Assembly (NCBI GenBank): GCA_023386315.1
Contig: JAEWJZ010000030.1
Span: forward strand, 62,001 to 126,000
Source of the DNA: Bacillota bacterium
Lineage (GTDB): Bacteria > Bacillota > Clostridia > Lachnospirales > Lachnospiraceae
DNA length: 64,000 nt
Direction: 5' to 3'
Position numbers and translations under genes: made by a program
Notes under the pieces: generated by a model
What the model was told of the DNA's origin: nothing
Database searches by the model: none
The model's input: only the letters and a program-made list of their open reading frames with translations
Shown: piece by piece, positions 15,436 through 33,085 of the stretch
Position numbering within the stretch: the stretch's first letter is position 1
Layout of the letters: every line of letters begins with the position of its first letter

Positions 15436-16758
15436 ATGAAAAAAGTAAATCTACTGGAAGATCCCGTAAAAAAATTATTCGCAGGATATCTTCTTCCGTC
15501 AATTAGTGCAACAATGGTCACATCCATTTATATATTAGCAGATACTCTTATGATTGGAAGAGGAGTGGGCGCGATCGGAATTGCCGCCCTGAATATACTT
15601 CTGCCTCTGTTCAGCCTGTTTTTTGCAACCGGAATGCTGTTTGGGGCAGGGGGCGGAATACTTTTATCTGTATGCAAAGGGAAAAAAGACGGCCTGGCTG
15701 CAAATCAGTATTATACGGCTGCATTTATTATGGCTGCAGTGATGAGTGTTACCTATACCGTTTTTGGTCATGCTTTTTTTCTGCCCATTACAGCATTTCT
15801 GGGGAGAAATGAAAATATGACGCCTTATGTGGAGGAGTATGGAAGGATTCTGATATCAGGAGCCCCCGCTTTTTTATTTGCATCTTTTTATCAGGTATTT
15901 GTGCGCAATGATAAAGCACCAAGGCTTGCCATGACAGCAGTGGTTTCAGGAGGAGTGTTAAATATTATCCTGGATTATGTTCTGATGTTTCCCATGCAGA
16001 TGGGTATGAAAGGGGCTGCTGCCGCCACTGTCATCGGCAGCTTTGTAACTCTTTTTATATTGCTGACACACCTGGTTTCAAAAGAAAATACGTTAAGATT
16101 TGTCACAGGAATCCACTTAAAGCAGGCGGCAGATGTGGTGAAAAATGGATTCTCCAGCTTTTTACTGGATATGTGTAATGGGATCGTCACCTTCTTATTT
16201 AACCGACAGATTCTTTCCATCGCCGGTGAACTGGGAGTGGTGGTTTATGGTATTATTTCCAACAGCGCATATATTGCATCGTCAGTCAATAACGGAATAT
16301 CCCAGGCAGTACAGCCGATACTGGCAACAAATTACGGGGCAGGAAAAAAAGAAAGGTTAAAGGAGGTAAGGCATCTGGCAGAGGGAACAGCCTGTCTGTC
16401 CGGTGTGCTGTTTGCCGGGATGGGACTTTTGTTTCCGGCTCTTGTAACAGAAGCATTTGTAAGACCTGATAAGGAAATTATGGCTATGGCGGTTCCAGCA
16501 GTACGGATTTATTTTCTGTCCTTTGCAGCAATGGGGCTGAATGTGCTTTATACCACCTGGTTCCAGTCAGTGATGGAACCTGCAAATGCTTTGAGAATCT
16601 GCCTGCTTAGGGGAATTGTTTTAAACAGTCTTCTGGTTTTTATTCTTCCATTATTTATGGGAGTCACCGGAATCTGGACTGTCATGCCAGTGACGGAAGT
16701 GCTGACTCTTACCGCATGTCGAATTATGTTAAAGAAACAGGCTATTTGTCGAACTTGA
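15436..16758 (+). CDS. MATE family efflux transporter
   Basis: A 440-residue polytopic protein with about twelve hydrophobic helices. It shows the MATE opening NLLEDPVKKLFAGYLLPSISATMV and the TLMIGRGVG motif, with an internal repeat beginning near residue 230. MATE proteins export cationic drugs or metabolites using sodium or proton gradients. Substrate and inducer are unknown. It stands alone, with AAAAAAGGAG before the ATG, between the divergent nup operon and ppdK. Confidence 0.9.
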   Translation: MKKVNLLEDPVKKLFAGYLLPSISATMVTSIYILADTLMIGRGVGAIGIAALNILLPLFSLFFATGMLFGAGGGILLSVCKGKKDGLAANQYYTAAFIMAAVMSVTYTVFGHAFFLPITAFLGRNENMTPYVEEYGRILISGAPAFLFASFYQVFVRNDKAPRLAMTAVVSGGVLNIILDYVLMFPMQMGMKGAAAATVIGSFVTLFILLTHLVSKENTLRFVTGIHLKQAADVVKNGFSSFLLDMCNGIVTFLFNRQILSIAGELGVVVYGIISNSAYIASSVNNGISQAVQPILATNYGAGKKERLKEVRHLAEGTACLSGVLFAGMGLLFPALVTEAFVRPDKEIMAMAVPAVRIYFLSFAAMGLNVLYTTWFQSVMEPANALRICLLRGIVLNSLLVFILPLFMGVTGIWTVMPVTEVLTLTACRIMLKKQAICRT

Positions 16759-16894
16759 TTTCGTATATACGAACACAAATCGCATATCAGAAAAAGACAG
16801 ACTTTGTAAGTGCTTTCAATGCAATTGTATTTAAAAAAGAGAAAATTACTTCAAATAATCAATGAAAACCTCTTTACTCCCCTTTTAATTGTGC

Positions 16895-16900
16895 TATAAT
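16895..16900 (+). promoter_or_regulatory. Probable -10 box of ppdK
   Basis: A perfect TATAAT lies 75 bases before the ppdK start. The -35 side (CTTTAC about 17 bases upstream) is weak. Confidence 0.5.
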
Positions 16901-16974
16901 ACTTTCAGGGCTTTTCCGCAATGGAAGGCGCGGGGGAGCAGCATAATTTACACTTTTTTAGGAGGATTTTACTT

Positions 16975-19599
16975 ATGGCAAGAAAATGGGTTTATTTGTT
17001 CACCGAGGGAAGCGCAGACATGAAAAACCTGTTAGGTGGCAAAGGGGCGAATCTGGCAGAGATGACCAATTTAGGTCTGCCGGTTCCTCAGGGATTTACG
17101 ATTACGACTGAGGCATGTACTCAGTATTATGAAGATGGGGAAACAATTAATGACGAGATCATGGGACAGATCATGGATCATATCGAAAAGATGGAAAAAA
17201 TCACCGGCAAAAAGTTTGGTGATAACGAGAATCCTCTTCTTGTTTCCGTTCGTTCCGGAGCCCGGGCGTCAATGCCTGGTATGATGGATACGATTTTAAA
17301 TCTTGGACTGAATGAGAAAGTAGTGGAAGTGCTTGCTGAAAAATCAGGCAATCCGCGCTGGGCATGGGACTGCTACAGAAGATTTATTCAGATGTTCTCC
17401 GATGTAGTTATGGAAGTAGGTAAAAAGTACTTCGAAGAGCTGATTGATGAAATGAAAGAAAAAAAGGGTGTTACAGAGGATGTACAGCTGACTGCTGAGG
17501 ATTTAAAAGAGCTTGCAGGACAGTTTAAAGATGAATATAAGGAAAAAATCGGTTCTGATTTCCCGGCTGATCCTAAGGAGCAGTTAATGGAGGCAATCAA
17601 GGCCGTATTCCGTTCCTGGGACAACCCAAGAGCCAATGTTTACCGCCGTGACAATGATATTCCCTATTCCTGGGGAACTGCTGTCAATGTTCAGATGATG
17701 GCATTTGGAAATATGGGTGAGACTTCCGGTACCGGTGTTGCATTTACCCGTGATCCTGCAACTGGCGAAAAACATCTCATGGGTGAATTCCTGATGAATG
17801 CACAGGGTGAAGATGTGGTTGCCGGTGTGCGGACTCCTCAGAAGATCGAGCAGTTAAAAGAGGTTATGCCTGAAGTTTATCATAAATTTGTGGGAATCTG
17901 CAGTATCCTGGAAGATCACTATAAGGATATGCAGGATATGGAGTTTACAATTGAAGACAAGAAGCTTTATATGCTTCAGACCCGTAATGGCAAGAGAACA
18001 GCGAAAGCTGCTTTAAAGATTGCCTGTGATTTAGTTGACGAGTTTATGATCACAGAAGAAAAAGCAGTTAAGATGATTGATCCGAGAAACTTGGATACTC
18101 TGCTTCATCCTCAGTTTGATGCAGAAGTATTAAAGAAGACAGAGCCGGTTGGAAAGGCACTTGCTGCTTCTCCTGGTGCTGCCTGCGGTAAGATTGTTTT
18201 CACAGCAGATGATGCAAAGACATGGAAGGAAAGAGGAGAAAAGGTGGTTTTAGTCCGTCTGGAAACCTCTCCTGAAGATATTGAAGGAATGAAGGCAGCT
18301 CAGGGTATTCTGACTGTAAGAGGAGGAATGACCTCTCATGCAGCTGTAGTTGCAAGAGGAATGGGAACCTGCTGCGTATCCGGCTGTTCTGAAATTGCCA
18401 TGAATGAGGCAGCGAAAAAGTTTGTTCTTGCAGGCAAGGAATACCACGAAGGAGACTGGATCTCCCTGGACGGATCAACCGGTAAGATTTACGACGGAAT
18501 TATCCCGACAGTCGATGCAACCGTTGCCGGTGAGTTCGGAAGAATTATGGCGTGGGCAGATAAATATAGAAAGCTGAAAGTAAGAACCAATGCAGATACA
18601 CCTGCTGATGCCAGAAAAGCCAGAGAGCTTGGTGCAGAGGGAATCGGTCTTTGCCGTACCGAGCATATGTTCTTTGAAGGCGACAGAATTGATGCGTTCC
18701 GTGAGATGATCTGTTCCGATACAGTGAAAGAGAGAGAAGCAGCACTGGAAAAGATTCTTCCGGTACAGCAGGGAGATTTCGAAGCTCTTTATGAGGCTCT
18801 GGAAGGAAATCCTGTTACCATTCGTTTCTTAGATCCGCCTCTTCATGAGTTCGTACCTACAGAGGAAGATGACATTAAGAAACTGGCTGATACTCAGGGC
18901 AAGACTGTGGAGCAGATCAAGACAATCATTGATTCTCTCCATGAATTCAATCCAATGATGGGACACAGAGGATGCCGTCTTGCTGTTACCTATCCTGAGA
19001 TTGCAAAAATGCAGACAAAGGCAGTGATCCGTGCTGCAATCAACGTTCAGAAAGCACATCCGGACTGGAATGTATGCCCTGAGATCATGATTCCTCTGAT
19101 CTGTGATGAGAAAGAATTAAGATTTGTGAAAAAGATTGTTGTTGAGACTGCAGATGCAGAGATTGCAGCAGCAGGCAGCAGCTTAACCTATCAGGTAGGA
19201 ACCATGATTGAGATTCCGAGAGCAGCACTGACTGCAGATGATATCGCAAAAGATGCGGAATTCTTCTGCTTCGGTACCAATGACTTAACTCAGATGACCT
19301 ATGGCTTCTCCCGTGATGATGCAGGTAAGTTCTTAAACGCTTACTATGATACCAAGATCTTTGAGAATGATCCATTTGCAAAACTGGATCAGACCGGCGT
19401 AGGCAAGCTGATGGAGACTGCAATCAAGTTAGGCAAGAGCGTTCGTCCTGATATGCATGTAGGTATCTGCGGCGAGCACGGCGGAGATCCGTCTTCCGTA
19501 GAATTCTGCCATAAGATTGGCCTTGATTATGTATCCTGTTCCCCGTTCCGTGTGCCGATCGCAAGACTTGCGGCAGCGCAGGCGGCGTTGAATAATTAA
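16975..19599 (+). CDS. ppdK: Pyruvate, phosphate dikinase
   Basis: An 874-residue PPDK, the same length as the Clostridium symbiosum enzyme. It interconverts pyruvate + ATP + Pi with phosphoenolpyruvate + AMP + PPi, in glycolysis or gluconeogenesis. The N-terminal ATP-grasp domain begins KWVYLFTEGSADMKNLLGGKG. The phosphocarrier His is about residue 455 in GGMTSHAAVVARGMG. The C-terminal PEP/pyruvate TIM barrel contains GTNDLTQMTYGFSRDD and the active-site Cys near 832 (ICGEHGGDPSS). The start at 16975 follows AGGAGG; a longer frame from 16921 is rejected because it adds an unrelated 18-residue lead. It is monocistronic. Confidence 0.98.
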   Translation: MARKWVYLFTEGSADMKNLLGGKGANLAEMTNLGLPVPQGFTITTEACTQYYEDGETINDEIMGQIMDHIEKMEKITGKKFGDNENPLLVSVRSGARASMPGMMDTILNLGLNEKVVEVLAEKSGNPRWAWDCYRRFIQMFSDVVMEVGKKYFEELIDEMKEKKGVTEDVQLTAEDLKELAGQFKDEYKEKIGSDFPADPKEQLMEAIKAVFRSWDNPRANVYRRDNDIPYSWGTAVNVQMMAFGNMGETSGTGVAFTRDPATGEKHLMGEFLMNAQGEDVVAGVRTPQKIEQLKEVMPEVYHKFVGICSILEDHYKDMQDMEFTIEDKKLYMLQTRNGKRTAKAALKIACDLVDEFMITEEKAVKMIDPRNLDTLLHPQFDAEVLKKTEPVGKALAASPGAACGKIVFTADDAKTWKERGEKVVLVRLETSPEDIEGMKAAQGILTVRGGMTSHAAVVARGMGTCCVSGCSEIAMNEAAKKFVLAGKEYHEGDWISLDGSTGKIYDGIIPTVDATVAGEFGRIMAWADKYRKLKVRTNADTPADARKARELGAEGIGLCRTEHMFFEGDRIDAFREMICSDTVKEREAALEKILPVQQGDFEALYEALEGNPVTIRFLDPPLHEFVPTEEDDIKKLADTQGKTVEQIKTIIDSLHEFNPMMGHRGCRLAVTYPEIAKMQTKAVIRAAINVQKAHPDWNVCPEIMIPLICDEKELRFVKKIVVETADAEIAAAGSSLTYQVGTMIEIPRAALTADDIAKDAEFFCFGTNDLTQMTYGFSRDDAGKFLNAYYDTKIFENDPFAKLDQTGVGKLMETAIKLGKSVRPDMHVGICGEHGGDPSSVEFCHKIGLDYVSCSPFRVPIARLAAAQAALNN

Positions 19600-19626
19600 T
19601 GCGTTGGCAATGAGCCGTGCAAAAAT

Positions 19627-19690
19627 AAGTGTCGGAAAGCCCGGTGGAGAGCTTGCTCTCCACCGGGCTTTCTGATGCTTATTTTTATAG
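19627..19690. terminator. Strong, probably bidirectional terminator after ppdK
   Basis: GAAAGCCCGGTGGAGAG and CTCTCCACCGGGCTTTC form a perfect 17-bp stem with a CTTG loop, extended by outer AAAAATAAG/CTTATTTTT arms. It marks the edge between the housekeeping block and the AT-rich lanthipeptide block. Confidence 0.92.
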
Positions 19691-19757
19691 GGCGAAGCCC
19701 GTGACCGAGATGGAGCGTAAGCGGAATCGAGGTTATAACAGCGGAGATATGTGCTGA

Positions 19758-20225
19758 TACAATTCGTGGACTAAAATAATATTATGTTTAGGCGGTATTA
19801 TTGCATTGGAGTTGCTGTCATCCATGCAGTGTCATTGTAATAAATGCATTTTAATTAATTCAATTTTAAAACCTACGAATGAGTTTTATAAAAATTTAAT
19901 GCTGCCTGCAAATATGAATATTTACGGAGAGCAGGTAATTTCAATGATTAAATTTGAAAGTCAATATTATGGTGTTTCTCTAACCAACTATTTACAAAGA
20001 GATGATGATTTTACGTATTATATTAAAAATATAAATGCAGAAATATATGGTATTTATGGTGATAGAGGGTATGAAAACTATCTTAACCGAATAAAAGATT
20101 TATGTCTGCCAGAAGATATATATAATAGAATAAATTTTCGATTTGTGAAGAATTCCTGCCATATGCCAATGATAGAAAATCCGATTGAATTAGCGCAGAT
20201 AATAAAAGACATAATTGAAAATTGA
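19758..20225 (+). pseudogene. C-terminal remnant of an alpha/beta hydrolase
   Basis: The open frame from the stop at 19755-19757 to TGA at 20225 reads like the second half of an alpha/beta hydrolase. It shows a nucleophile-elbow-like LCLGGIIALELL followed by CILINS, a G-D pair (IYGDRGYENY) where the acid residue is expected, and a closing NSCHMPMIENP that fits the usual GHxPxxExP catalytic-His segment. The N-terminal half (first strands and oxyanion hole) is missing, and the nucleophile position has Cys (TGT) instead of Ser. The only start options are TTG at 19806, inside the fold, or later ATGs. It is AT-rich like the lanthipeptide genes and abuts the ppdK terminator region, so it is probably a relic truncated when the island joined. 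Confidence 0.65.
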
Positions 20226-20228
20226 TGC

Positions 20229-20280
20229 ATAAAAAAGCTGCGCACAGCATTTTAATGAGCTGATGCACAGCTCTTTTTTT
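20229..20280 (+). terminator. Terminator-like hairpin before the lanA promoter
   Basis: AAAAAAGCTG plus GCACAGC pairs, with small bulges, with GCTGATGCACAGC plus TCTTTTTTT. The T run follows the stem. It insulates lanA from upstream reading. Confidence 0.65.
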
Positions 20281-20324
20281 CCTTTATTTGCAGATTTTGA
20301 CTCGTATCATTAACAACATCATAG

Positions 20325-20388
20325 AAAATTACATTTTAAGTCGTAAAAATTACATGCAGTCAAAAAAGAGCTAATTTCTTGATATAAT
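20325..20388 (+). promoter_or_regulatory. lanA promoter with 21-bp-spaced direct repeat
   Basis: AAAATTACAT occurs at 20325-20334 and again at 20346-20355, exactly 21 bp apart (two helical turns), each followed by AGTC a few bases on. A perfect TATAAT lies at 20383-20388, but its -35 region (near 20359-20365) is poor and directly abuts the second repeat. This is the expected arrangement for activation by an OmpR-type regulator such as the LanR encoded at 28274-28948. Binding is inferred. An imperfect hairpin (GTAAAGTGA with TTTCACGTTTAC, 20407-20431) lies in the leader. Confidence 0.6.
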
Positions 20389-20483
20389 ATAGACATGAAC
20401 TTGGTAGTAAAGTGATTCATTTCACGTTTACTATATATGATCAGATTTAGATTATATAACTACATAGAAAGGGGGACGAGGTC

Positions 20484-20657
20484 ATGAATAAAGATTTTGA
20501 TTTGGATCTTAAAATGGACAAGGGTTCAGTAGATGTAGGAGAATCAAAAATTGCAAGTGTTGCTTATTGCACACCTGGTTGTTTAACAGGATCTACCTGT
20601 GGAACAAGTGAATGTGGATTGACAAGAAACTGCACAAACACATGGTTATGCTACTAA
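20484..20657 (+). CDS. lanA: Class I lanthipeptide precursor peptide
   Basis: A 57-residue precursor. The leader (about residues 1-22) carries the class I FNLD-type box as FDLDLK (5-10), which binds LanB, and ends GESK before the proposed core at Ile23. The core has six Cys (29, 33, 39, 44, 50, 56) and ten Ser/Thr. Its first part, IASxxYCTPGC then LTG, matches the nisin/epidermin ring A/B pattern: Ser25-Cys29 and Thr30-Cys33 are the expected lanthionine and methyllanthionine, the lipid II-binding cage in nisin. The rest (STCGTSEC, GLTRNC, TNTWLCY) does not look like the nisin hinge and D/E rings. GGGGGA precedes the ATG at 20484. It is followed by a hairpin and lanB. Ring pairing beyond A/B is speculative. 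Confidence 0.93.
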   Translation: MNKDFDLDLKMDKGSVDVGESKIASVAYCTPGCLTGSTCGTSECGLTRNCTNTWLCY

Positions 20658-20677
20658 TTTCCATGTAAACCCGATGC

Positions 20678-20721
20678 AAACGTACATGCATTTAGATGAT
20701 TCACAAAATGCATGTACGTTT
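20678..20721 (+). terminator. Perfect 16-bp hairpin between lanA and lanB
   Basis: AAACGTACATGCATTT (20678-20693) and its exact complement (20706-20721) flank a 12-base loop. The following TACATTTTG is only weakly T-rich, so partial termination or processing is likely, letting lanA outnumber lanBTC. ATGTAAAC at 20663-20670 can alternatively pair with GTTTACAT at 20718-20725, which overlaps the 3' arm. Confidence 0.75.
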
Positions 20722-20811
20722 ACATTTTGTGGAGGTAATTTTTCTGGCGGATATTAAGTTTCTATTTTGGTCAGGCATACAAGAGTTAAGCAAGGAGGAT
20801 ACGGTTAAAAT

Positions 20812-23800
20812 ATGAAAGATTTATTCAAAGATATAGGTTCCTTTATGATAAGGACACCGAGTCTGCCAATTAATTTATTGACAGATAATATAGAAAGTGC
20901 AAATAACATAGATCATATTATGTTTTTATTTGATTCTCCTCAATACAAAGATCAGTTTGATGAAGCTATATTTGTGGCCAGCCATGATTTATATGAATCC
21001 ATGCAACACTATAAAGAGGATGGCACAGCAAGGGATACGAACTATTTGTTGAATTCAATCTATAAATATTTTAGCAGAAGCTGTTCCAGATGTACTCCAT
21101 TTGGATTATTCTCGACGGTTGCATTTGGCGATATTACTTCTGAAAGAACATTATTTGAATTAAGCAGTGCAGAATTAAAAAGAAAGCCCCTGATCGATTC
21201 AGAGTGGTTATTCCAAGTGGTTTTTATGTATGAATCCAAGTACTTAAAATCTCTTCGATACACAATCAATGAAAGTGTTGCAATTCAGAAAAACAAAGCA
21301 ATTTTGTTTAATTGCACAAAAGACAGCAATGGGGAAAAAGTAAATAAAAAATCTGTAAAGTACTCCAACGCATTTGAAGTAGTTTTAAGAATATCAGGAG
21401 ATTACGTGAGTTATTCTGATATTATAAAAAACCTTAAAAAAGAATATCCCAATGTGGAAGAAAACACATTCCATACATATATCCAATCTCTAATAAAGGA
21501 AGGTTATTTAATTTCCGATCTACGTCCACCATTGACAATCGTTGATCAATTTGAATACTTTATCTGTAAACTTCAGGAATATGATATAAATACAAAAACT
21601 ATAGTTGACATAAAAAATGAAATTCAAGAATATTCCAGTGGCTATAAAAATAATACCATCGAATGTCTGACAAAAATTTTCAAAGATATGAAGAGAATTT
21701 ACAACTCCAAAAACTACCTGACCATAGATTCTTCCTTTTCCTACAGCCAATGCAATTTAAATCAAAATGAAATAAAAAAAATAAATAAGCTCCTCAATTT
21801 ATTTGTACAATTTAATATCAAAGAGCCTTTCAATAGTTTAAATGATTACAAGAACAAATTTTTAGAAAAATATGGCCTTTCCAGGTGTGTTCCTTTGACT
21901 GAACTTATTGATACTGATACTGGAATAGGTTTTCCATCCCATTATGATGGAAAAACCGGCATGAATAATTTTGGAGAATATATCAATCCCTGGATACGAT
22001 TTTTTGAAAGAAAATATGTAGATTCCATAAGACTTGGTCAGGAAATTGAGATCACTGATGCAGATATGGGAATGCTTTTAACAGAAGATATTGATATGGA
22101 TCAGTTGCCCAAATCCATGGAGATTTACTTTAATTATGTGAAAGACAATGGAAAGGATGTTTATTATTTAAGTAATATTTTTGGATCGACTTATGCAGGG
22201 AAATCATTTGGAAGATTTTCTCATTTGATGAAGAATCCAGAACAGTTCTTTAAAGAAATAAATAAAAATTATGGTGATGAATGCCAGGTCTGTGAATTTA
22301 CTTACTTACCCGATAGTTTATATTCCGCAAACGTGATCCGAAATATGCATGGCTCCACTTATGAAACAAGTTTTGGGACTACAAATTCAAAAGATCAGGC
22401 ATTTAAACTTAAACTAAGTGACATCTTAGTAGAATTTAAAAATAACAAATTATATTTAAAGTCAGCGGCTAACAATAAAAGAATTATCCCAACATCTACC
22501 AATATGTTTAATCCACAGCTAAAACCCAGAATATTAAGATTAATTGACGAAATATCTTCTGATGGAATCAGGTTTTATAATAAACCATGGCAATACTTAC
22601 TGGAGAAATTTGCCTATCTTCCAACTATACGATATAAAAACTTCGTATTGGAGCAGGAGAAATGGATTATTAAAATAGGTGATCTTGGTTTAACAAAACA
22701 TTATGATTTTGCTGAGTTTAAAAATAAGTTTACCGAATACATAAATTCAAGAAATATACCCCTTTGGGTGGATGCCGTAGATGCAGACAAAAAACTTCTG
22801 TTAAATCTGAAAGAGGACAGATGTTTATCTGTGTTGCAGAAATTACTGGAAAAATCAGAAACAGTTGTGGAAAGATATAATATAGAATCAGAACATCCAG
22901 TGAAACTGAATGATACTTCTTATTGCTGTGAATTGGTAATACCATTAATTTTAGCTCAGGATGCTAACTCCCATAAGGCCAATGATTTTGACATTACCAA
23001 GAATTATGGTAATGTCAGATATAAAGAGCCTTTAGATGAGTGGTTATATTTCAAAATATACGGTATTGAGGAATACGCAGATTATCTTTTAGGTGAAGCT
23101 TTGTATGCTCCATTGCAGAAATTACTTGAAAATAAAGAAATAGACAGCTATTTCTTCATTCAGTATAAAGATCCAGATTTACATCTGCGATTGAGATTAA
23201 AAGCTGATAATACTAAATTAATGTTGGTGCTGCCAAAAATGTTAGATATATTAAGCCAGCTTATGAAAAACTCTCTTATCTCAAACTATTGTATTGATTG
23301 TTATGAGCTTGAATTGGAGAGGTATGGCGGATATGATTTGATGAACTATGCACATGAGGTGTTTTATAAAGACAGCATAGCAATTCAAACGATAATCTAT
23401 GAAAAAAATAATCATAATATAAAAGTGTCAGATGAACTTTTAGCATCAGTGATTATTTACTTTCACATGCAAATATTTAATTTGAGTTTTGAAGATATGT
23501 TTGTATTTCTCAATTGTGAAAATCCTACCAAGAGCTATCAAAAAGAATTTAGAGAACATAAGGATACCTACGTTGATTTCGCAATAAAGTATTTGTATCA
23601 TGAAACGATAAATCCAGAGATTGATTTTATTTTGAAAATATTATCGGTAAAAATTGAATCAATGAAAGAATATTTAAATAAAATCGAAGAATATTACCCG
23701 GATAACAAAGCTGTAAAATTTAGCATACTTGATAGTCTGCTGCATATGAACATGAATCGATTATTTGGTCCCAATACGGAATTGGAAAAAAAGATGAGAA

Positions 23801-23868
23801 GTTTAGCACGTCATACATATTACTGTGTTTACAGCAGAAAAAAAATAGGTATATTGGGTGGTAAATAA
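20812..23868 (+). CDS. lanB: Class I lanthipeptide dehydratase
   Basis: A 1018-residue full-length LanB (NisB is about 990). It dehydrates Ser/Thr of the LanA core using glutamyl-tRNA. The N-terminal glutamylation domain shows the family block RCTPFGLFSTVAFGD (about 94-108). The C-terminal elimination domain (SpaB_C type) includes the signature FFIQYKDPDLHLRLRLK (about 781-797). Low-GC codon use matches lanT and lanC and differs from ppdK. The start lies 13 bases after AGGAGG, somewhat far, but no better codon exists. lanT starts two bases after its stop. Confidence 0.96.
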   Translation: MKDLFKDIGSFMIRTPSLPINLLTDNIESANNIDHIMFLFDSPQYKDQFDEAIFVASHDLYESMQHYKEDGTARDTNYLLNSIYKYFSRSCSRCTPFGLFSTVAFGDITSERTLFELSSAELKRKPLIDSEWLFQVVFMYESKYLKSLRYTINESVAIQKNKAILFNCTKDSNGEKVNKKSVKYSNAFEVVLRISGDYVSYSDIIKNLKKEYPNVEENTFHTYIQSLIKEGYLISDLRPPLTIVDQFEYFICKLQEYDINTKTIVDIKNEIQEYSSGYKNNTIECLTKIFKDMKRIYNSKNYLTIDSSFSYSQCNLNQNEIKKINKLLNLFVQFNIKEPFNSLNDYKNKFLEKYGLSRCVPLTELIDTDTGIGFPSHYDGKTGMNNFGEYINPWIRFFERKYVDSIRLGQEIEITDADMGMLLTEDIDMDQLPKSMEIYFNYVKDNGKDVYYLSNIFGSTYAGKSFGRFSHLMKNPEQFFKEINKNYGDECQVCEFTYLPDSLYSANVIRNMHGSTYETSFGTTNSKDQAFKLKLSDILVEFKNNKLYLKSAANNKRIIPTSTNMFNPQLKPRILRLIDEISSDGIRFYNKPWQYLLEKFAYLPTIRYKNFVLEQEKWIIKIGDLGLTKHYDFAEFKNKFTEYINSRNIPLWVDAVDADKKLLLNLKEDRCLSVLQKLLEKSETVVERYNIESEHPVKLNDTSYCCELVIPLILAQDANSHKANDFDITKNYGNVRYKEPLDEWLYFKIYGIEEYADYLLGEALYAPLQKLLENKEIDSYFFIQYKDPDLHLRLRLKADNTKLMLVLPKMLDILSQLMKNSLISNYCIDCYELELERYGGYDLMNYAHEVFYKDSIAIQTIIYEKNNHNIKVSDELLASVIIYFHMQIFNLSFEDMFVFLNCENPTKSYQKEFREHKDTYVDFAIKYLYHETINPEIDFILKILSVKIESMKEYLNKIEEYYPDNKAVKFSILDSLLHMNMNRLFGPNTELEKKMRSLARHTYYCVYSRKKIGILGGK

Positions 23869-23869
23869 T

Positions 23870-25666
23870 ATGCAGAAATTTAAAATATTAAGTACTTCAG
23901 AAGTAAAGGAAATGCTTTCTTCACTAAAAGTGATTCCCAAATCCATTAAAATATTTTTCCAGGCCAGCAAACTGATATTTGTCCTAACCATTATTATTAA
24001 TATTATTGCGGGTATCGTTCCTGTAATTTCCGTAAATATTTTTGGTAACCTGATTAATGCTATTTCAGCCAAAGATTTAGATAGCTCGTTGAAGATATTA
24101 GCAATCTACATCGGCATTAGTTTTCTGTCAGGTATGATTATAAGTATTAAAACTTTTTTATTTACCAAATTTCAATTGTTGTTAGATTATGAATTGATTA
24201 ACAGGCTATTGGATAAGTGCGCCATTATGTCTTTGGAGGAATTTGAAAATTCTGACATACAGGATCAGCTGCAGCATATCCTATCGCAGGTGGGATTCAG
24301 GCCTTATAATATCTTTACTACCACATTGACACTTGTAACGTCAATTACTACCATACTTTCATCTGTTTATATCATGCTGATGTGGCGGCCTTTGTCAGTA
24401 TTTCTTATCATTGTTCCCGCGTTTGCCTTTTCAATTTTCTATCTTTCCATAAGTAAAAGAGAGTTCCAGACAGAAGAAAGAAATGCAAAGAAAGCCAGAA
24501 GTATATGGTATTATGAATTTTTACTAACAAAGGATCAATCTTTTAAAGAAGTTAAAATTTTTAATTTAGCCAGACATATTATAAAGAGACATAATGATTT
24601 AAAGCAAAGCGTTATTAATGAAAACTTATACAACACCAAGGTACGGCTGATTATATCCGTTGTATTTGATTTTGTTGATCAGATCTGTATGGCAATACTC
24701 ATGATTTTAATCATATTATCCGTAATTGCCGGAGAAATTTTAATTGGTAACGCTGTTGCACTTCTAAGAATTATAAGCATGATGTTTGATAGCTTTAACA
24801 GTATCATGAATATTATTTACAGCATAAATCAAAACAGTTTGTATATGACAAAATTGATTAATTTTCTAAGTAAGCCTGGTAATGCAAATAGGAATGAAAA
24901 TTATAAACTGAATGATTTAGATCAGATTGAAATAAATAACCTAACATTTGCATATCCGGAAACAGATAAAAAAGTTCTTCAGAATATCAATATAAAAATT
25001 AATAAAAACCAAAGAGTTGCATTGTTCGGAAGAAATGGATCTGGCAAAAGTACATTAATAAAATTATTATTGGGATATTATTTAGTTGATGACGATATGA
25101 TTAAGATGAATGGAATCCCTTTAAATAAAGTTAATATTGACAGCTTACATAAATTAACAGGAATACTATTCCAGGATTACTGTAAGTATGAACTATCAGT
25201 AAAGGATAATGTAGGTTACGGTAATATTGATGAAATCGATAACGAAGCCCTAATAAAAGAGTCACTGGAAGAAGCTGGGATAGACTTTCTTCCTCCTGAT
25301 TTAAATCAGCAGCTTGGAAAATGGTTTTCAGATGGAATACAGTTATCTGGCGGACAGTGGCAGAGAGTTGCTCTGGCCAGGTGCTTTTTCAAAAAAGCGC
25401 AAATGTATATTTTAGATGAACCAAATGCGGCGCTGGATAAAATGGGTGAGAAAAAAATAATGAACACATTTTTTGAACTTACAAAAAATAAGATTGGCGT
25501 GTTTATTTCTCATAAAATTGCACATGTCATGCTAGCTGATAAAATAATTTATCTGGACGAAGGAAAGATCGTGGCAGAAGGTACACATGAGGAGTTATTA
25601 AAAACATGTCCTTCCTATAAAGAAATTTACGATCTGGAATTCGATATACCCCAAAATGGAGGCTGA
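23870..25666 (+). CDS. lanT: Lanthipeptide ABC exporter
   Basis: A 598-residue fused membrane/ATPase exporter of the NisT/SpaT type. About six hydrophobic helices fill residues 30-310. The ATPase has Walker A GRNGSGKST (about 386-394), signature LSGGQWQR (about 490) and Walker B MYILDEPNAALD (about 511). There is no N-terminal C39 peptidase domain, so leader removal must be done by something else. The ATG at 23870 is preferred over an upstream GTG overlapping lanB, because GGTGG precedes it. lanC follows after two bases. Confidence 0.95.
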   Translation: MQKFKILSTSEVKEMLSSLKVIPKSIKIFFQASKLIFVLTIIINIIAGIVPVISVNIFGNLINAISAKDLDSSLKILAIYIGISFLSGMIISIKTFLFTKFQLLLDYELINRLLDKCAIMSLEEFENSDIQDQLQHILSQVGFRPYNIFTTTLTLVTSITTILSSVYIMLMWRPLSVFLIIVPAFAFSIFYLSISKREFQTEERNAKKARSIWYYEFLLTKDQSFKEVKIFNLARHIIKRHNDLKQSVINENLYNTKVRLIISVVFDFVDQICMAILMILIILSVIAGEILIGNAVALLRIISMMFDSFNSIMNIIYSINQNSLYMTKLINFLSKPGNANRNENYKLNDLDQIEINNLTFAYPETDKKVLQNINIKINKNQRVALFGRNGSGKSTLIKLLLGYYLVDDDMIKMNGIPLNKVNIDSLHKLTGILFQDYCKYELSVKDNVGYGNIDEIDNEALIKESLEEAGIDFLPPDLNQQLGKWFSDGIQLSGGQWQRVALARCFFKKAQMYILDEPNAALDKMGEKKIMNTFFELTKNKIGVFISHKIAHVMLADKIIYLDEGKIVAEGTHEELLKTCPSYKEIYDLEFDIPQNGG

Positions 25667-25668
25667 TT

Positions 25669-26940
25669 ATGAATTTACCGAATGAAAAAAAGCGTGAGTT
25701 GGATAATTTCATAATGAATATATCAAAAAAATTGTCCGACGCAGATTATGTTCAGGAGATATTTGCTTCAAATAACACTGAGTATCGATGTACTTCAGTA
25801 GCAGTTTCATATCCGGCATTATGTATATTATTTTCGGAACTTCAATTAAATTTTCCGGATTACGATTTTGATAAGTATGCTCATACATATCTGGAGATAG
25901 TAAATGACTATATGGGCCAAAATAATATCTATGATATCTCCCTGTTTGATGGGTTATGCGGTGTGGGTTTTGCCGCGCATTGTATGTCAGACCATGGGAA
26001 ACGGTATCAATCGTTTATAAAGAGCTTAAACGAGCACATTATTGATATTGCGGACAGTAATATTTTAAAGTATAAAGAATTACCATTTAACGAACTATTT
26101 TATGATATTATGTATGGGTTAACCGGTACAGCCACTTATCTGTTGAATTTTCACTCGGAACAGAAAGTAAAAAAGACATTGCTGCACATTCTGCAATATT
26201 TAACTGATCTATGCAAAACAGGAGACAATGGAATCCCACGCTTTGCAATCAGAGCAGATGAGAGCCAATTGTTTCCTCTCGAGAATAGTCCTGAGATTCG
26301 ATATATAAATTTAGGGGTTGCACACGGGATACCTGGCATGCTTTTAATATTATGTAAATCCTATGAATCAGGAGTATATGTGCAAGACCAGCTGGAAGCA
26401 ATAAAGTATTTATCAGAATTCATTTTTAACAGCTGCATAAAAGACAGTGATGATATTTTTTGGGAAACTCAAAAAATATTAGGAATGGATCAGGAGAAAG
26501 CAGTACCTTCCAGAGATGCGTGGTGTTATGGTACTCCAGGTGTGGCGTATTCATTATTGATTGCTTCAAAGATCCTGGATAATGATGAAATGCGTGAGCT
26601 TGCGGTTGACAGTATGAAATTATCTTTAAAAAGAATGCGGCAAGTTATCTCACCTACTTTTTGTCATGGACTTTCTGGTTTGTGCTGTCTGACCAGAAAA
26701 TTCTATGAATACACGGATGATAACTTCTTTTATGAAGTGTATATGAAGACATTGGATCATTTACTGGAATCCTACAGTGACCAATATCCGTTTGGGTTTA
26801 AAGATACGGAAATAGAGGAAGGGCATATTGTGAATAAGGATGAAATAGGACTCTTAACAGGAACCAGTGGAGTGATCCTGACTATTTTATCTTGCTATCA
26901 TCCTGTTAAAACACAATGGGATTCAATATTTTTATTATAA
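25669..26940 (+). CDS. lanC: Lanthipeptide cyclase
   Basis: A 423-residue LanC that catalyses Michael addition of Cys thiols to dehydrated residues. The expected active-site His is H219 (GVAHGIPGM). The zinc ligands are C286 (WCYGTPGVAYSL), C332 and H333 (FCHGLSGL), at almost the same numbers as in NisC (H212, C284, C330, H331). The closing LLTGTSGVILTIL is the last barrel repeat. GGAGG precedes the ATG. It is the last gene of the rightward arm and faces lanK across a shared hairpin. Confidence 0.96.
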   Translation: MNLPNEKKRELDNFIMNISKKLSDADYVQEIFASNNTEYRCTSVAVSYPALCILFSELQLNFPDYDFDKYAHTYLEIVNDYMGQNNIYDISLFDGLCGVGFAAHCMSDHGKRYQSFIKSLNEHIIDIADSNILKYKELPFNELFYDIMYGLTGTATYLLNFHSEQKVKKTLLHILQYLTDLCKTGDNGIPRFAIRADESQLFPLENSPEIRYINLGVAHGIPGMLLILCKSYESGVYVQDQLEAIKYLSEFIFNSCIKDSDDIFWETQKILGMDQEKAVPSRDAWCYGTPGVAYSLLIASKILDNDEMRELAVDSMKLSLKRMRQVISPTFCHGLSGLCCLTRKFYEYTDDNFFYEVYMKTLDHLLESYSDQYPFGFKDTEIEEGHIVNKDEIGLLTGTSGVILTILSCYHPVKTQWDSIFLL

Positions 26941-26944
26941 AAAA

Positions 26945-26969
26945 CAGCGGTCCGATTGTCGGACCGCTG
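26945..26969. terminator. Shared hairpin between convergent lanC and lanK
   Basis: CAGCGGTCCGA and TCGGACCGCTG form a perfect 11-bp stem with a 3-base loop. The T-rich tail lies on the leftward side (complement of the A run at 26935-26944), so it is a proper terminator for lanK. For lanC the tail is poor. Confidence 0.85.
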
Positions 26970-28298
26970 TCAGAATTTAATTGTAACAACCCCTCCGGAC
27001 TTATTGTTACTCAGATAAAGCTGACCTTCGTGGGTCTTGACTGCCTGTGCGGCAAACCAGAGACCGAGACCATTATGACCGTCTGCACCACGCGCCGTAT
27101 CCCCACGCCACAGACGTTCCGTTGCATGCTGTAAAGCCGGCTTACTAAAGCCGGGGCCTTCATCACACACAGTCACCTGCCAGCCGCCATCTGCCATACT
27201 GCCTGTCAAATATACGTTTCCACCCACCGGTGAATGCTCTATGGCATTTTGTACTACATTTCCAAGGGCGCGAAGTAAATGTTCTTTTTGGACGTTTACA
27301 GAACCGTTAAGACTGTTCTGGGTTTTTATGCACACGCCCCTGGCTTCTGCAATGGCCGTAGTGTTACTGATCAGTTGGTCAAACAGGGCGTTCAGGCTGG
27401 TATTTTTAAAAGCTTCCTCCTCACCTGCCGAGGTTTCAAGTAAACAAGTAACATACTGCCTGGCACGTTGATTGCTGGCTGCAATTGTTTCCACCATCTT
27501 ACGGTCGCATTCAGGCAGTTCTTCGTCAAGCAGCAGTTCGGCATTGCCTCCTATCAGGGTGAGGGGGGTTTTTAAATCATGGGCCAGTGCGGCTATTTCT
27601 GCTTCCCGTTCCTGCTGTGCCGCCCACTGAGAGGACAGGGAGTTGTACAAAGCACCTCTCATATGCTCCATTGCATCAAGTGCCTGATCGTATTCCCGTA
27701 TCCCTGCGTGTGGAATTGTAAAATCCAGTTCCTGTGCACCGACCTTGCGGCTAACCTCATCAAACAGTTTCAGTTTGGAGGCAAGACGCTGACGAAGCCA
27801 CAGGGTGTTAAACAGAAGACAAAACACCAATGCTGCACCCAATGATGACAGCCACAGATATTCAAAGGGGGGCAGGACACCTCGCAGAACAGGATCTGCA
27901 AACTCTGATCTGTAATAATATCGTATGATTACCGTGCTTCCATCTCTATAAGTGTGTCTGGAAACACGCATATTATATGCATCTTCATGTAAAAGACTGG
28001 TCAGGTTTTTCAATTTCCTTCCTTTGGTATTGCTTTCCAGAACTTTACCATTCCGATCAAATAAAGCGTACTCTGCCAAAAAATCGTCACTTGGAGAAAC
28101 GAAAGTTTCCGGGTCACCAGCCAGCATTTGTTCTACCTGTTGGCTGGAAGTATATGAATTATAGAAAAAGCCGGTGTTTACGAGCCGGATAAATAACCAA
28201 TACCATAACAAGCAGCATAATAGCATGCAGCCAAGCATAACAATGCCAAAGCGTAAAAGGACAAAGGAAAGACTTACAGATCTTCGTTTTTTCGCCAT
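26970..28298 (-). CDS. lanK: Sensor histidine kinase of the lanthipeptide locus
   Basis: A 442-residue membrane histidine kinase: TM1 about residues 13-36, an extracytoplasmic sensor of about 100 residues, TM2 about 125-147, a HAMP-like linker, the H-box ALAHDLKTPLTLIGGNAELL, and an ATPase with NVVQNAIEHSP, DEGPGFS and NGLGLWFA. The short sensor and gene order suggest it senses the mature peptide or envelope stress. The ATG at 28298 follows GGGGGGTGGG; a TTG six codons earlier is possible. It overlaps lanR by 25 bases. Base composition is clearly richer in GC than lanBTC and lanFEG, hinting at a separate origin. Confidence 0.9.
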   Translation of the reverse strand: MAKKRRSVSLSFVLLRFGIVMLGCMLLCCLLWYWLFIRLVNTGFFYNSYTSSQQVEQMLAGDPETFVSPSDDFLAEYALFDRNGKVLESNTKGRKLKNLTSLLHEDAYNMRVSRHTYRDGSTVIIRYYYRSEFADPVLRGVLPPFEYLWLSSLGAALVFCLLFNTLWLRQRLASKLKLFDEVSRKVGAQELDFTIPHAGIREYDQALDAMEHMRGALYNSLSSQWAAQQEREAEIAALAHDLKTPLTLIGGNAELLLDEELPECDRKMVETIAASNQRARQYVTCLLETSAGEEEAFKNTSLNALFDQLISNTTAIAEARGVCIKTQNSLNGSVNVQKEHLLRALGNVVQNAIEHSPVGGNVYLTGSMADGGWQVTVCDEGPGFSKPALQHATERLWRGDTARGADGHNGLGLWFAAQAVKTHEGQLYLSNNKSGGVVTIKF

Positions 28299-28948
28299 TT
28301 GTAACCCACCCCCCAAATTGTATCGATAGGACTGATGCCGTGGGCTTTCATCTTGGCACGGATATTTTTAATGTGCTCTGCAACAGCGGACGGATCTCCC
28401 TCTGCGTCAAAGCCGAAAACGGCTTCGTATAATTGTTCTTTGGTAAACACCTGTCCGGCGTGAAGTGCCAGATGCTCACAGATCGCATATTCGCCCTTGG
28501 TGAAGGGCAGTGTGTGTTCACCAGCAAATGCCGTTTTTGCCTGTATATCGAAGCGGACGCTGCCTCGTTTTAATATGTGGGTTGGCTGACGCACTTCCCT
28601 CCGAAGATGGGCGCTTACCCTGGCACGCAGCTCTGCAACACTGAAAGGTTTTTTAATGTAATCATCGGCTCCCAGGCCAAAGCCCTGAACGAGAGCCGAA
28701 TCTTCTGCTTTGGCGGTTAAAAACAGGATAGGGCAATCCACTTCGGTACGGATCCGTCTGCAGAAGGAAAATCCATCCTCGCCGGGCATCATTACGTCAA
28801 GAAGCAAAAGATCGTATAATCGGCATCTGGCGGGCTGTAAGGAAGCGGCATTTGCTTCAGTGTCTACCTGGTAACCTTCTTTTTCCAGAGCAGTGCGTAC
28901 CAGAGCCAGCATATCCAGATCATCGTCGATGACTAACAGTTTTGGCAT
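28274..28948 (-). CDS. lanR: OmpR-type response regulator of the lanthipeptide locus
   Basis: A 224-residue response regulator. The receiver domain has the acidic pocket DDD at 8-10, phosphoacceptor Asp51 (LLLDVMMPGEDG) and the conserved Lys in KKPFSVAELRARV. The C-terminal winged helix (about 125-224) ends with IDTIWGVGYKWRK, typical of the OmpR/PhoB class used as LanR (NisR, SpaR). A good AAGGAGG precedes the ATG. It likely activates lanA through the 21-bp repeat and perhaps its own operon. GC content is higher than in lanG just upstream. Confidence 0.92.
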   Translation of the reverse strand: MPKLLVIDDDLDMLALVRTALEKEGYQVDTEANAASLQPARCRLYDLLLLDVMMPGEDGFSFCRRIRTEVDCPILFLTAKAEDSALVQGFGLGADDYIKKPFSVAELRARVSAHLRREVRQPTHILKRGSVRFDIQAKTAFAGEHTLPFTKGEYAICEHLALHAGQVFTKEQLYEAVFGFDAEGDPSAVAEHIKNIRAKMKAHGISPIDTIWGVGYKWRKNEDL

Positions 28949-28965
28949 AGAATATCCTCCTTATC

Positions 28966-29697
28966 TTACTCTTGTATAACTCTGCCTTCCCATCTACTAT
29001 ACCATAATATTGTGAGAACCAGAACAGCCGAAGTAATAATAATCAGAGAAATTACTCCAGGAATAACAGATCCACTGGTAAGGTTAAAATAATCTTTTAA
29101 AAACCGCACACCCCATTCCCAGGGAATAGCCGGCCAGATTTTATCACCAATGGAATTTTCAAAGTAACCAGCTAAAATTGTACCTGCTATTCCTGATAAA
29201 ACGGAGATACTGAAACCAAATTTAAAAGCAATGGGTACATGTATAACATATAAAAATAAGTTACTTAATAAAAATGAGCAGAATATAAAAAAATAGGAAC
29301 CAAAGTCCATAAAGTTCATATTTAGAAAAAAATTCACTCCGGCATAAAAGCATAGTTCGTATAGTATGATACTAGTGGAAGACAGAAACAGCAGAAAGAA
29401 CAATTTACCCAGATAAACACTTCTTCTGGATTCTACGATTCCCAGAGCGTTTTGGACATTGTTGATATTACGGTCTAAATTAATAAAAATTGGTACTACA
29501 AAACTAACAAACATAGGATAGCATATTTGCAACAAAATGAAAAACAGCCGAACATCAGAAAAAATACGGTATCCACCAGAATTGTAATAAACTAAAAATA
29601 ATGTTGTGATTACGACAGGAGGCAGCAGATGCAATAGTATAAGCGGAGTTCGTTTAATTTTAGTAAAGTTAGAAAAAAATTCTCTTGTAATTGTCAA
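28966..29697 (-). CDS. lanG: Lanthipeptide immunity ABC permease (LanG/MutG-like)
   Basis: A 243-residue membrane protein with six hydrophobic helices. It begins with a short cytoplasmic ITREFFSNFTKIKRTPLILLHLLPP that is typical of MutG/SpaG immunity permeases. WPAIPWEWGVRFL near the last loop also fits the family. Together with LanE and LanF it pumps the lanthipeptide away from the producer membrane. The start overlaps lanE by four bases. Confidence 0.85.
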   Translation of the reverse strand: MTITREFFSNFTKIKRTPLILLHLLPPVVITTLFLVYYNSGGYRIFSDVRLFFILLQICYPMFVSFVVPIFINLDRNINNVQNALGIVESRRSVYLGKLFFLLFLSSTSIILYELCFYAGVNFFLNMNFMDFGSYFFIFCSFLLSNLFLYVIHVPIAFKFGFSISVLSGIAGTILAGYFENSIGDKIWPAIPWEWGVRFLKDYFNLTSGSVIPGVISLIIITSAVLVLTILWYSRWEGRVIQE

Positions 29698-30455
29698 TTT
29701 CGATACACCTGCCCTCTGTACCAGCGTGCAAATAGAAATGTAAGAACGACCGCAGTGAGCAGGCTTACAACCACCAGCAGTGAACTCTGGCCTAAACTCA
29801 GAATCTGTCTTGTACCTCCCTGAACCAATAATCCGTTTGGCAAAACTCCGAATAAGGTAATCATAAACCTGGCGGTCCAGCTATATGGAAAAAACCAGAA
29901 TATAGGCGTCAGAGAAAAAAACAAACCACCAAATCCAGCGAAAATCAGATTAATGATCATAGAACCTACGAATCCGGCTTTTTGATCCAAAAACAAGCAG
30001 AAAGGGATCTGCCATAATAAAGTCAGCCATAATAAGCAGTATTCTAAAACATAATATCCGGTATGTTTGAAAGCACTTAAGTCACCTGACTGCATGTATT
30101 CTGAAATAATAGATATCAATGATAGTAATAATGAAATCAGCAAAAGATTAAGTGCTATTAAAATTGTTTTAGAAATAAATGTATTTTTTAAGTCTATGGG
30201 CAGGCTGTAAATAGTCCGGTAATTGTGTTTTTGTTCCTTATTATTTACTAAGTGGCATAATATCACAATGGATAAAGACGCAATGGGTACACACCAATTG
30301 CAGACGATGGAGCATGAAAAACCACCTAAACCAATACCCACAGATAAAAATATAACTGCTATTAAAATTAAGGCTGCCGGAATATATAATATGAGTTTCC
30401 GAAACAGGGTGCGTTTAAATTTTAAGTTTTCTGCTGCCAGATAGGTTCGTAACAT
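29694..30455 (-). CDS. lanE: Lanthipeptide immunity ABC permease (LanE/MutE-like)
   Basis: A 253-residue six-helix permease beginning RTYLAAENLKFKRTLFRKLILYIP, the characteristic start of MutE/EpiE/SpaE proteins. The segment NWCVPIASLSIVILCHLVNNKEQKHNYRTIYSLPI is a family block. It shares one base with the end of lanF and four with the start of lanG, so the three transporter genes are tightly coupled. AT-rich. Confidence 0.87.
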   Translation of the reverse strand: MLRTYLAAENLKFKRTLFRKLILYIPAALILIAVIFLSVGIGLGGFSCSIVCNWCVPIASLSIVILCHLVNNKEQKHNYRTIYSLPIDLKNTFISKTILIALNLLLISLLLSLISIISEYMQSGDLSAFKHTGYYVLEYCLLWLTLLWQIPFCLFLDQKAGFVGSMIINLIFAGFGGLFFSLTPIFWFFPYSWTARFMITLFGVLPNGLLVQGGTRQILSLGQSSLLVVVSLLTAVVLTFLFARWYRGQVYRN

Positions 30456-31207
30456 CAGGAAGCACGCTCCTTTCTTATGATATCCATAAACAACTGTTCC
30501 AGATTCTCATTGGCATCAATTTTATCCTGATACAGAAGTGACCCATTATTTAGAATGCCTATGTCATCGGCGACCTGCTGTATCTCGCTTAAGATATGAC
30601 TGGATACAATGACTGAAATCCCGGATACTGCGAATGTACGGATCATTTTCCTTAAATCTTCCATTCCGAAAGGATCCAGCCCATTGGTAGGCTCATCTAA
30701 GACTAACAATTCGGGGTCATTTAAAAGCGCTAATGCGATACCCAGCCTTTGCTTCATTCCCAATGAAAAATCAGCAATCTGCTTATTTTCCGTATCCATT
30801 AAGTCCATTCTTTCCAAAACTTCAATGCATTTATCGGTTGAGATCCCCATAAGAGTTGCCCGGACTTTTAAATTTTCAAACGCTGTTAAATTTTCATACA
30901 AAGGAGGTGATTCAATGAGGGAACCAATCCTTAATAGATCTTTTCTGCTCCAGGGGTGATTATCGAATATTATTTCTCCGGAAGTGGGGGTGATAATACC
31001 TGTAATCATCTTCAGTAATGTTGATTTGCCAGCACCGTTAGGTCCTAACAGACCGTAGACAGAATTTTTCCTTACAGACATAGATAAATCATTAATTGCA
31101 TATGTCTTTTTAAATTTTTTGGAAACATGATTGGTTTTTATCATATACTCATGCATCATAACATCCTCCATTTCACAATTAGCCGCTTTGTACAGTGTCT
31201 GTTCCAT
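30455..31207 (-). CDS. lanF: Lanthipeptide immunity ABC ATPase (LanF-like)
   Basis: A 250-residue ATP-binding subunit. Walker A GPNGAGKST (about 55-63), signature FSLGMKQRLGIALALL (about 148) and Walker B LLVLDEPTNGLDP (about 168) are intact, and the sequence fits bacitracin/MutF-type immunity ATPases. Two starts are possible: 31207, with a strong AAAGGAGGT, and 31159, with GGAGG five bases upstream. I report the longer one, although the conserved domain begins only after the second. It heads the leftward lanFEG-RK operon. Confidence 0.9.
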   Translation of the reverse strand: MEQTLYKAANCEMEDVMMHEYMIKTNHVSKKFKKTYAINDLSMSVRKNSVYGLLGPNGAGKSTLLKMITGIITPTSGEIIFDNHPWSRKDLLRIGSLIESPPLYENLTAFENLKVRATLMGISTDKCIEVLERMDLMDTENKQIADFSLGMKQRLGIALALLNDPELLVLDEPTNGLDPFGMEDLRKMIRTFAVSGISVIVSSHILSEIQQVADDIGILNNGSLLYQDKIDANENLEQLFMDIIRKERAS

Positions 31208-31290
31208 AGGGGTACCTCCTTTTGACCTGTTACTGTTATGGTAACAGCCATTTTTAAGGATTTTATAAGGAAGTGGTTTTTACAGTAAAA
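31208..31290 (-). promoter_or_regulatory. Probable promoter and dyad of the lanFEGRK operon
   Basis: Read leftward, TTTACT and TATAAA are spaced by 16 bp about 50-80 bases before lanF. CTGTTAC (31227-31233) and GTAACAG (31241-31247) form a dyad in the leader. No copy of the lanA AAAATTACAT repeat is seen here. Confidence 0.45.
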
Positions 31291-31393
31291 AAATGGAAAA
31301 TGAAAAATAGAAAGGCTATGATTAAAACATGACATACAGCTGCCGTATTATGCATGTTATAATTGTAGTAAAATTAATTGGGAGGAGTATAAC

Positions 31394-31819
31394 ATGAATT
31401 CAGAAATAATCGCAAAAGCAAATAAGATAATTGAAGAAAAGGCTGTAGGTGGAAATGAGGGATATTGTGCTTTAACATTAATCGACATGGATGACTATCC
31501 AACAACCTCAACAATATCCGTATCAAAATCTGATGGCATAAACTGGCTTACATTCTGTACAGGATTTGGCAGTGATAAAACCAAAAGAATTGAAAGATGC
31601 AACAAAGCAAGTGTTTGTTTTAATTCTGTTAATCATAATATTACACTGGTGGGTATAATAGAAGTATTGACAGACCCTGAAATTAAAAAAGAAATGTGGT
31701 ATCATGGACTTGAAAATCATTTCAGCGGTCCTGATGATCCCAATTACTGTGTTCTGCGTTTCACTACAACCCGCTACAATCTTTTTGTGGATTGGAAGGA
31801 AGCAAAGGGGGTCTTATAA
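31394..31819 (+). CDS. Pyridoxamine 5'-phosphate oxidase-like flavin-binding protein
   Basis: A 141-residue protein of the PNPOx-like split-barrel fold. Recognisable elements are the opening helix followed by YCALTLIDMDDYPTTSTIS, INWLTFCTGFGSDKTKRIERCNKASVCF (the strand and helix that hold FMN phosphate in relatives) and the C-terminal NYCVLRFTTTRYNLF. Such small proteins bind FMN, F420 or heme; the substrate here is unknown. GGGAGG precedes the ATG. It begins a rightward run of accessory genes next to, but divergent from, lanF; no link to the lanthipeptide is shown. Confidence 0.75.
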   Translation: MNSEIIAKANKIIEEKAVGGNEGYCALTLIDMDDYPTTSTISVSKSDGINWLTFCTGFGSDKTKRIERCNKASVCFNSVNHNITLVGIIEVLTDPEIKKEMWYHGLENHFSGPDDPNYCVLRFTTTRYNLFVDWKEAKGVL

Positions 31820-31853
31820 ACAAATTATTCTATAAAGCAAAGGAGATCTTTTA

Positions 31854-33062: not shown

Positions 33063-33085
33063 TATTATTTTACAGCCTTTTGAGG

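Follow-up and report, generated by a model that had tools for sequence, protein, structure and literature searches.

Nisin, the reference for much of the comparison below, has a ring C spanning T13 to C19 (nisin numbering) and a Dha at position 5 (Dha5). For maddinglicin (MadA/MadB/MadC), the passages covered here of two papers give seven Cys and a prediction of four intertwined C-terminal rings (PMC9889658, PMC12241602). In the same passages, the authors argue from the missing hinge and the missing LanI that no pores are formed (PMC9889658), and the missing hinge and tail rings are described (PMC12241602). Paenilan is matured by an unclustered S8 protease and its cluster holds no protease, according to the passages covered of PMC8960859, and the nisin O leader, likewise from a cluster without a protease, is cleaved by trypsin (PMC11811420, passages covered). 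The core sequence of paenicidin B is printed in PMC7829367. A lanthipeptide of Paenibacillus sp. APC 4171 is a prediction that was called closest to paenicidin B by the authors' tools (PMC11381294, passages covered), and an mBio 2025 survey of nisins mentions, in its passages covered, a Lacrimispora variant termed nisin RL8var (PMC12506125).

The locus described here lies in a window of 64,000 nucleotides, i.e., the whole stretch of DNA that was analyzed, from a bacterium close to the genus Lacrimispora. The open reading frame lanA (20484..20657, plus strand) reads exactly as the 57-residue precursor with nisin-type N-terminal pattern that the initial annotation had described. Its translation is MNKDFDLDLKMDKGSVDVGESK-IASVAYCTPGCLTGSTCGTSECGLTRNCTNTWLCY, the hyphen marking the putative cleavage point between the leader (residues 1-22) and the core (residues 23-57). 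As is characteristic of class I, the leader carries an FDLDL box (FxLD-type) and lanA lies beside lanB and lanC genes. LanA reaches 47.6 bits against the NCBIfam model TIGR03731 of the gallidermin/nisin family (cut-off 29.3) and is barely at the 21-bit cut-off of the Pfam model PF02052 (Gallidermin). The 35-residue core contains ten Ser/Thr and six Cys (positions 7, 11, 17, 22, 28 and 34), the later ones spaced 6, 5, 6 and 6 apart in STC, TSEC, TRNC and TWLC contexts, as previously annotated. The annotation was also right that the nisin hinge and the intertwined D/E pattern are missing: the core shows neither a hinge after ring C nor TxTCxC rings and is not a nisin in the strict sense. The pattern is more than chance, as seen from the family score, the copies in relatives and the place directly upstream of lanB, lanT and lanC. 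The original assignment to the class I lanthipeptides is supported.

The genes lanA, lanB, lanT and lanC follow each other on the same strand. LanB (20812..23868, plus strand) is a dehydratase of 1018 aa with the domains PF04738 and PF14028, which by analogy would depend on tRNA-Glu. LanT (23858..25666, plus strand) is an exporter ABC transporter of 602 aa for which Pfam returned no C39 peptidase domain, and LanC (25669..26940, plus strand) is a cyclase of 423 aa (PF05147) whose zinc motif residues were aligned to NisC and MadC. The best structural match of LanB is MadB (9g04; 564 bits, residues 1-1006), and NisB (4wd9) is matched with 274 bits over residues 47-995. LanC aligns over residues 8-422 with MadC (8byk) and partly with NisC (2g02). 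By eye, the LanB stretches TPFGLFS, HLRLRLK, ELERYGG and DSLLH align with regions of NisB that we take to be catalytic. Likewise by eye, the Cys of DAWCYG and the Cys-His of CHG in LanC fall on Cys and Cys-His positions of NisC, presumably its zinc ligands. Judged from these alignments, the catalytic and zinc motifs of both enzymes are intact.

Relatives were collected by three protein searches and one scan of named genomes (8 loci). They come from Lacrimispora species, Paenibacillus ottowii and three MAGs, one labelled Hungatella and two with the label Paenibacillaceae and loci that match Lacrimispora; two of the relatives carry the NCBI label 'gallidermin/nisin family lantibiotic' of Lacrimispora. 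The 42 precursor records of the window's type (type 1) comprise 30 distinct precursors and 26 distinct cores from Lacrimispora, other Clostridia and Paenibacillus, with identical cores counted once and cores cut one residue past Cys6. Left out of this count are the two truncated rows P0025 and P0028, P0030, in which the cage motif finds no match, the rows P0036 to P0047, which are fragments or of nisin type, and L008 to L011 and L030 to L032, which are weak or of nisin type. P0029, P0031 to P0035 and L034 form a separate count as type 2. Within the nearest genus, 9 of 25 genomes gave a match, seven of them with a close LanA copy (86 to 100% identical) and two with ordinary nisin-type cores. 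Ordinary nisin-type precursors of this genus are found at L008 and L009 (genomes G006 and G014). The family sample yielded matches in 2 of 397 genomes, namely G001 (this type) and G403 (nisin-type); the latter, from another genus of the family, has three tandem matches (L030-L032), two of which read as nisin-type. For the genus of P. ottowii, matches were obtained in 6 of 75 genomes, two of this type and four representing paenilan or a one-residue variant. The tail that had been called unfamiliar is therefore so in print, as far as searched, but not in the databases, where its pattern recurs in 26 distinct cores.

Across these cores, each Cys keeps one upstream hydroxyl. The donors lie at offsets of -4, -3, -4, -3, -3 and -3 before Cys1 to Cys6 and are Ser/Thr in 26, 26, 26, 26, 26 and 25 of the 26 cores, counts that are not independent because the variants are related. 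This retention predicts six side-by-side rings, S3-C7, T8-C11, T13-C17, T19-C22, T25-C28 and T31-C34, and the natural variation thus agrees with the earlier estimate of up to six rings, the last near the C-terminus. The donors of Cys4, Cys5 and Cys6 can each be Thr or Ser (Thr/Ser 12/14, 25/1 and 18/7), and P0024 alone lacks a hydroxyl residue at the place predicted for the ring F donor. Two hydroxyls of the window core outside the donor set vary, position 15 being Ser/Thr in 12 and position 16 in 14 of the 26 cores. In ten TGELC cores and one TGQLC core, T13 is the sole hydroxyl between Cys11 and Cys17.

The same class I lanthipeptide might instead carry overlapping tail rings, either with Cys34 linked to Thr29 and Cys22 to Ser20 or with intertwined C-terminal rings like those that maddinglicin is predicted to have. 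Ser20 is invariant (26/26 cores) and could be a rival donor for ring D, and the residue five before Cys6, Thr29 in the window, is Thr in 23 of 26 cores and could be a rival donor for ring F. In addition, the nearest solved enzymes are those of maddinglicin, with its four intertwined C-terminal rings predicted in the passages covered. We nonetheless regard such an arrangement as rather unlikely. A Ser20-Cys22 ring would span three residues only, Thr and Ser exchange without loss at the Cys4 and Cys5 donors, and the Cys6 donor is retained in 25 of 26 cores. Moreover, P0026 has Leu at position 29 yet keeps Ser at 31, and P0027 keeps Thr three before Cys6.

With the ring partners suggested by this variation, we consider it reasonably probable that the locus makes a class I lanthipeptide antibiotic with six rings in a row, which captures lipid II and blocks wall synthesis without nisin-type pores. 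In this model, in which lipid II binding, killing mode, cleavage site and regulation are putative, LanB would dehydrate Ser/Thr of the core, and addition of the six Cys by LanC would then close a row of six small (methyl)lanthionine rings. LanT would export the modified precursor, and a protease encoded elsewhere would remove the leader, probably after Lys22. Rings A and B, which equal the nisin lipid II cage in sequence, would form a nisin-type cage for the lipid II pyrophosphate, and four further compact rings would replace the nisin hinge and cationic tail. The near-neutral, hinge-less product would kill Gram-positive competitors through lipid II capture and a block of wall synthesis, while LanFEG would protect the producer and LanRK would control expression.

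Both the hinge and LanI are missing here as in maddinglicin, as far as tested, which favors lipid II capture without pores. Formation of nisin-like pores despite the missing hinge could draw on the match of rings A and B to nisin and on the retained TG of ring C. It appears improbable, however, as the core has no Asn-Met-Lys hinge and no TxTCxC pattern for D/E rings, and the side-chain net charge (K,R minus D,E) is zero or negative throughout, ranging from -2 to 0 in 26 of 26 cores with a value of 0 for the window core.

Convergent to the biosynthetic genes, lanF, lanE, lanG, lanR and lanK occupy 26970-31207. The immunity ABC transporter consists of the ATPase LanF (30455..31207, minus strand; TIGR03740, 348.7 bits, cut-off 309.75) and the permeases LanE (29694..30455, minus strand; TIGR03732, 173.3 bits, cut-off 145.2) and LanG (28966..29697, minus strand; TIGR03733, 133.1 bits, cut-off 117.2), so that all three components of a LanFEG transporter score above the cut-offs of their NCBIfam models. 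In LanF, a Glu that aligns with the Gln of ABCA3 replaces the Q-loop Gln (GSLIESP), which we take to be a mark of lantibiotic immunity ATPases. LanR (28274..28948, minus strand) is a response regulator with a Trans_reg_C domain, and LanK (26970..28316, minus strand) is a sensor histidine kinase with HisKA/HATPase_c domains. Each of the nine genes is an uninterrupted reading frame in the window; identity to the Lacrimispora counterparts is 84 to 100%, as far as these are contained in the fetched loci. The cluster is a real, conserved class I lanthipeptide system, complete except for a leader protease and LanI.

The identities form a mosaic. The window LanA is the same as in L. xylanisolvens DSM 3808 (L014; 100% identity) and 86% identical to that of L. 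amygdalina (L018), and LanG and LanE are 100% and 98% identical to L. amygdalina and only 90.5% and 93% to L014. Judged from these three loci, precursor and immunity genes look as if exchanged separately. About 4.6 kb from lanF, an agr-like pair of a GHKL sensor kinase and a LytTR response regulator is encoded at 35841-37881 (minus strand), beside a 193-aa ORF (35243-35824) with no NCBIfam hit. A holin-like protein is encoded at 34769-35233 (plus strand; TIGR01593, 46.9 bits, cut-off 40.2), adjoined by an ORF (34200-34739) whose sigma-factor hits stay below cut-off.

Neither an S8 leader protease nor a LanI lipoprotein was among the Pfam hits of 27 window proteins, 17 from the region 15436 to 34739 and 10 more, which amount to about half of the 53 larger ORFs (at least 130 aa) of the window. 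S8 queries run by phmmer against all 169 window ORFs of at least 60 aa likewise gave no match. The only peptidase among the 27 proteins is an M16C/PreP-type enzyme of 974 aa (2966-5890, plus strand), about 15 kb from lanA. S8 matches were present in all seven type-1 genomes of the Lacrimispora genus that were searched, with 20 to 27 matched stretches each, and thus candidate leader proteases exist elsewhere. For the window, Lys22 is the probable end of the leader; the relatives differ widely in the final leader residues, so that one common protease is not evident. The lack of a leader protease in the cluster makes maturation less certain, and that no S8 enzyme was found in the window would fit a cluster that is silent or decayed in this strain and gives no product. 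Such a state is hardly probable, given nine open genes at 84 to 100% identity to the covered Lacrimispora counterparts and a precursor whose changes between relatives keep the donor pattern. In three Lacrimispora-type loci, lanC and lanK are separated by an extra ORF of ~290-300 aa that bears a lipobox-like ISMGC (L012, 16825-17694; L013, 16486-17361; L017, 16677-17585), which is absent from the window and is possibly a LanI-type immunity lipoprotein or an unrelated insert. At L012 and L017, a phage-lysozyme-like ORF (by eye) is also found there.

Upstream of lanA, an inverted-repeat box GTGATTCATTTCAC (20412..20425, plus strand) begins 72 bases before the start codon and just upstream of a TATATAT stretch, and is a candidate LanR operator. 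Of 10 type-1 upstream regions, 8 contain GTGATTNATTTCAC without a mismatch and the other two (L013 and L018) differ from it by one base, and the best match in the sole type-2 region (L034) is 4 bases off. The box has one exact match only in the window; three further copies with two mismatches were rejected as being at chance level. A sigma-70 consensus scan listed no plus-strand promoter at the box or TATATAT, and hence the reading of TATATAT as a -10 element is by eye. Between lanA and lanB, an RNA hairpin with a perfect 16-bp stem is located at 20678..20721 (plus strand). The region 20655-20745 folds at -29.4 kcal/mol (z -5.53), with 0 of 200 shuffles as good, and a similar stem was seen by eye at the same place in L019. 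The hairpin was not listed in a terminator scan of the window; it is perhaps a partial terminator/attenuator or a processing site that keeps the lanA transcript in excess. That the peptide is mainly a signal inducing its own cluster via LanRK, with weak or no killing, would suit the presence of LanRK and the conserved box but is very improbable, as a dedicated LanFEG immunity transporter is present, the lipid II cage motif is kept and autoinduction and killing coexist in nisin.

The type-2 cores, seven in number and all from Paenibacillus, represent a sister subfamily with most of the layout preserved, namely the cage, TGxxC, SS(E/D)C and the T-x-x-C step. They differ from type 1 in that Cys5 comes one residue earlier and the last ring is variable, with its donor at -3 in 5 of 7 cores and possible at -4 in 7 of 7. 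At the sole type-2 locus examined (L043), LanB and LanC are 26% and 24% identical to the window's enzymes, as compared to 65-66% and 67% for two Paenibacillus type-1 loci. In trees containing no NisB, MadB or paenicidin enzymes, L043 groups with the paenilan LanB (10 rows; support 100/100, both rows flagged for unusual composition), and the corresponding LanC pairing is weaker (94/93, long branches). The P. ottowii genome G437 contains both a type-1 and a type-2 cluster. Its loci are L042 and L034/L043 as well as L035/L044 with a precursor that is paenicidin-like by eye; no LanB or LanC match was found in the 20-kb surroundings of L035/L044, and L035 matches our profile weakly (21.4 bits, positions 4-36, mostly leader).

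Either precursors came to be paired with different enzymes, or the layout has two origins. We propose, as a tentative and somewhat doubtful idea, a distinct scaffold that joins the nisin lipid II cage to four single-file small rings, with no hinge and no net positive charge, and that would be the product of two unrelated LanB/LanC lineages (~25% identical) found in Clostridia and Paenibacillus and even together in a single genome. If this were true, selection would act on the ring layout itself, and the product would be a non-pore-forming lipid II binder in which the invariant Ser-Glu-Cys ring would add a contact absent from nisin. With nearly the same ring layout next to two diverged LanB/LanC pairs, it may also be asked whether the substrate or the cyclase determines topology. 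The 26 natural cores represent a hinge-less, uncharged lanthipeptide with a putative lipid II cage and would offer a way to tell apart the parts of nisin needed for lipid II capture and for pores.

No paper describing this peptide was found for Lacrimispora/Lachnospiraceae lanthipeptides or for core stretches in the literature searched, which extended to neither subscription papers nor supplements, and the passages covered of PMC12506125, PMC13289728, PMC11811420 and PMC11170972 contain no description of it. In the passages covered, the sole sequence hit for core stretches is the APC 4171 prediction. None of the 30 distinct type-1 precursors matches the starting pattern of the nisin survey as given in the passages covered of PMC12506125; the survey then continued with an HMM, and its complete list of cores stands in supplements outside this comparison. 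A close characterized homologue with the same full core, which would have spoken against the initial annotation, did not appear in the literature searched; many uncharacterized homologues exist.

Paenilan of P. polymyxa E681 shares with the window the class I type and a cluster without protease but differs in its 26-residue core and its sequence. Paenibacillus hits had raised the suspicion that it is the same peptide, which the printed sequence and the paenilan relatives ruled out. The paenicidins A and B resemble the window core in six Cys, the lack of a hinge and the Ser-x3-Cys start (paenicidin B core compared), but have no CTPGC and nine instead of six residues from Cys2 to Cys3. By eye, the paenicidin B and window cores are unlike, and paenicidin was absent from the hits of the three protein searches. 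The APC 4171 peptide, which is the P0029 sequence, shares Cys 7, 11, 17 and 22, TGxxC, SSEC and the T-x-x-C step, and thereby the layout over the first two thirds, with the tail departing after position 23.

Maddinglicin has the closest solved LanB and LanC and is likewise hinge-less, with a nisin-like N-terminus and a cluster without LanI. The window core differs from it in having six Cys, a tail spacing of 6, 5, 6 and 6 and a different tail sequence, and is not of the maddinglicin type. With nisin and subtilin (five rings), the locus shares the FDLD-type leader box, the S-x3-C of ring A, the CTPGC of ring B, the TG opening ring C and the LanB-T-C, R-K and F-E-G genes. In contrast to nisin, ring C is predicted to be two residues shorter (T13-C17), Ala stands at position 5, which is never Ser/Thr in the 26 cores, and the window core has no hinge, no intertwined D/E rings and a side-chain net charge of 0. 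The tail is unlike those of the characterized members compared here, and the core is not unique in the databases.
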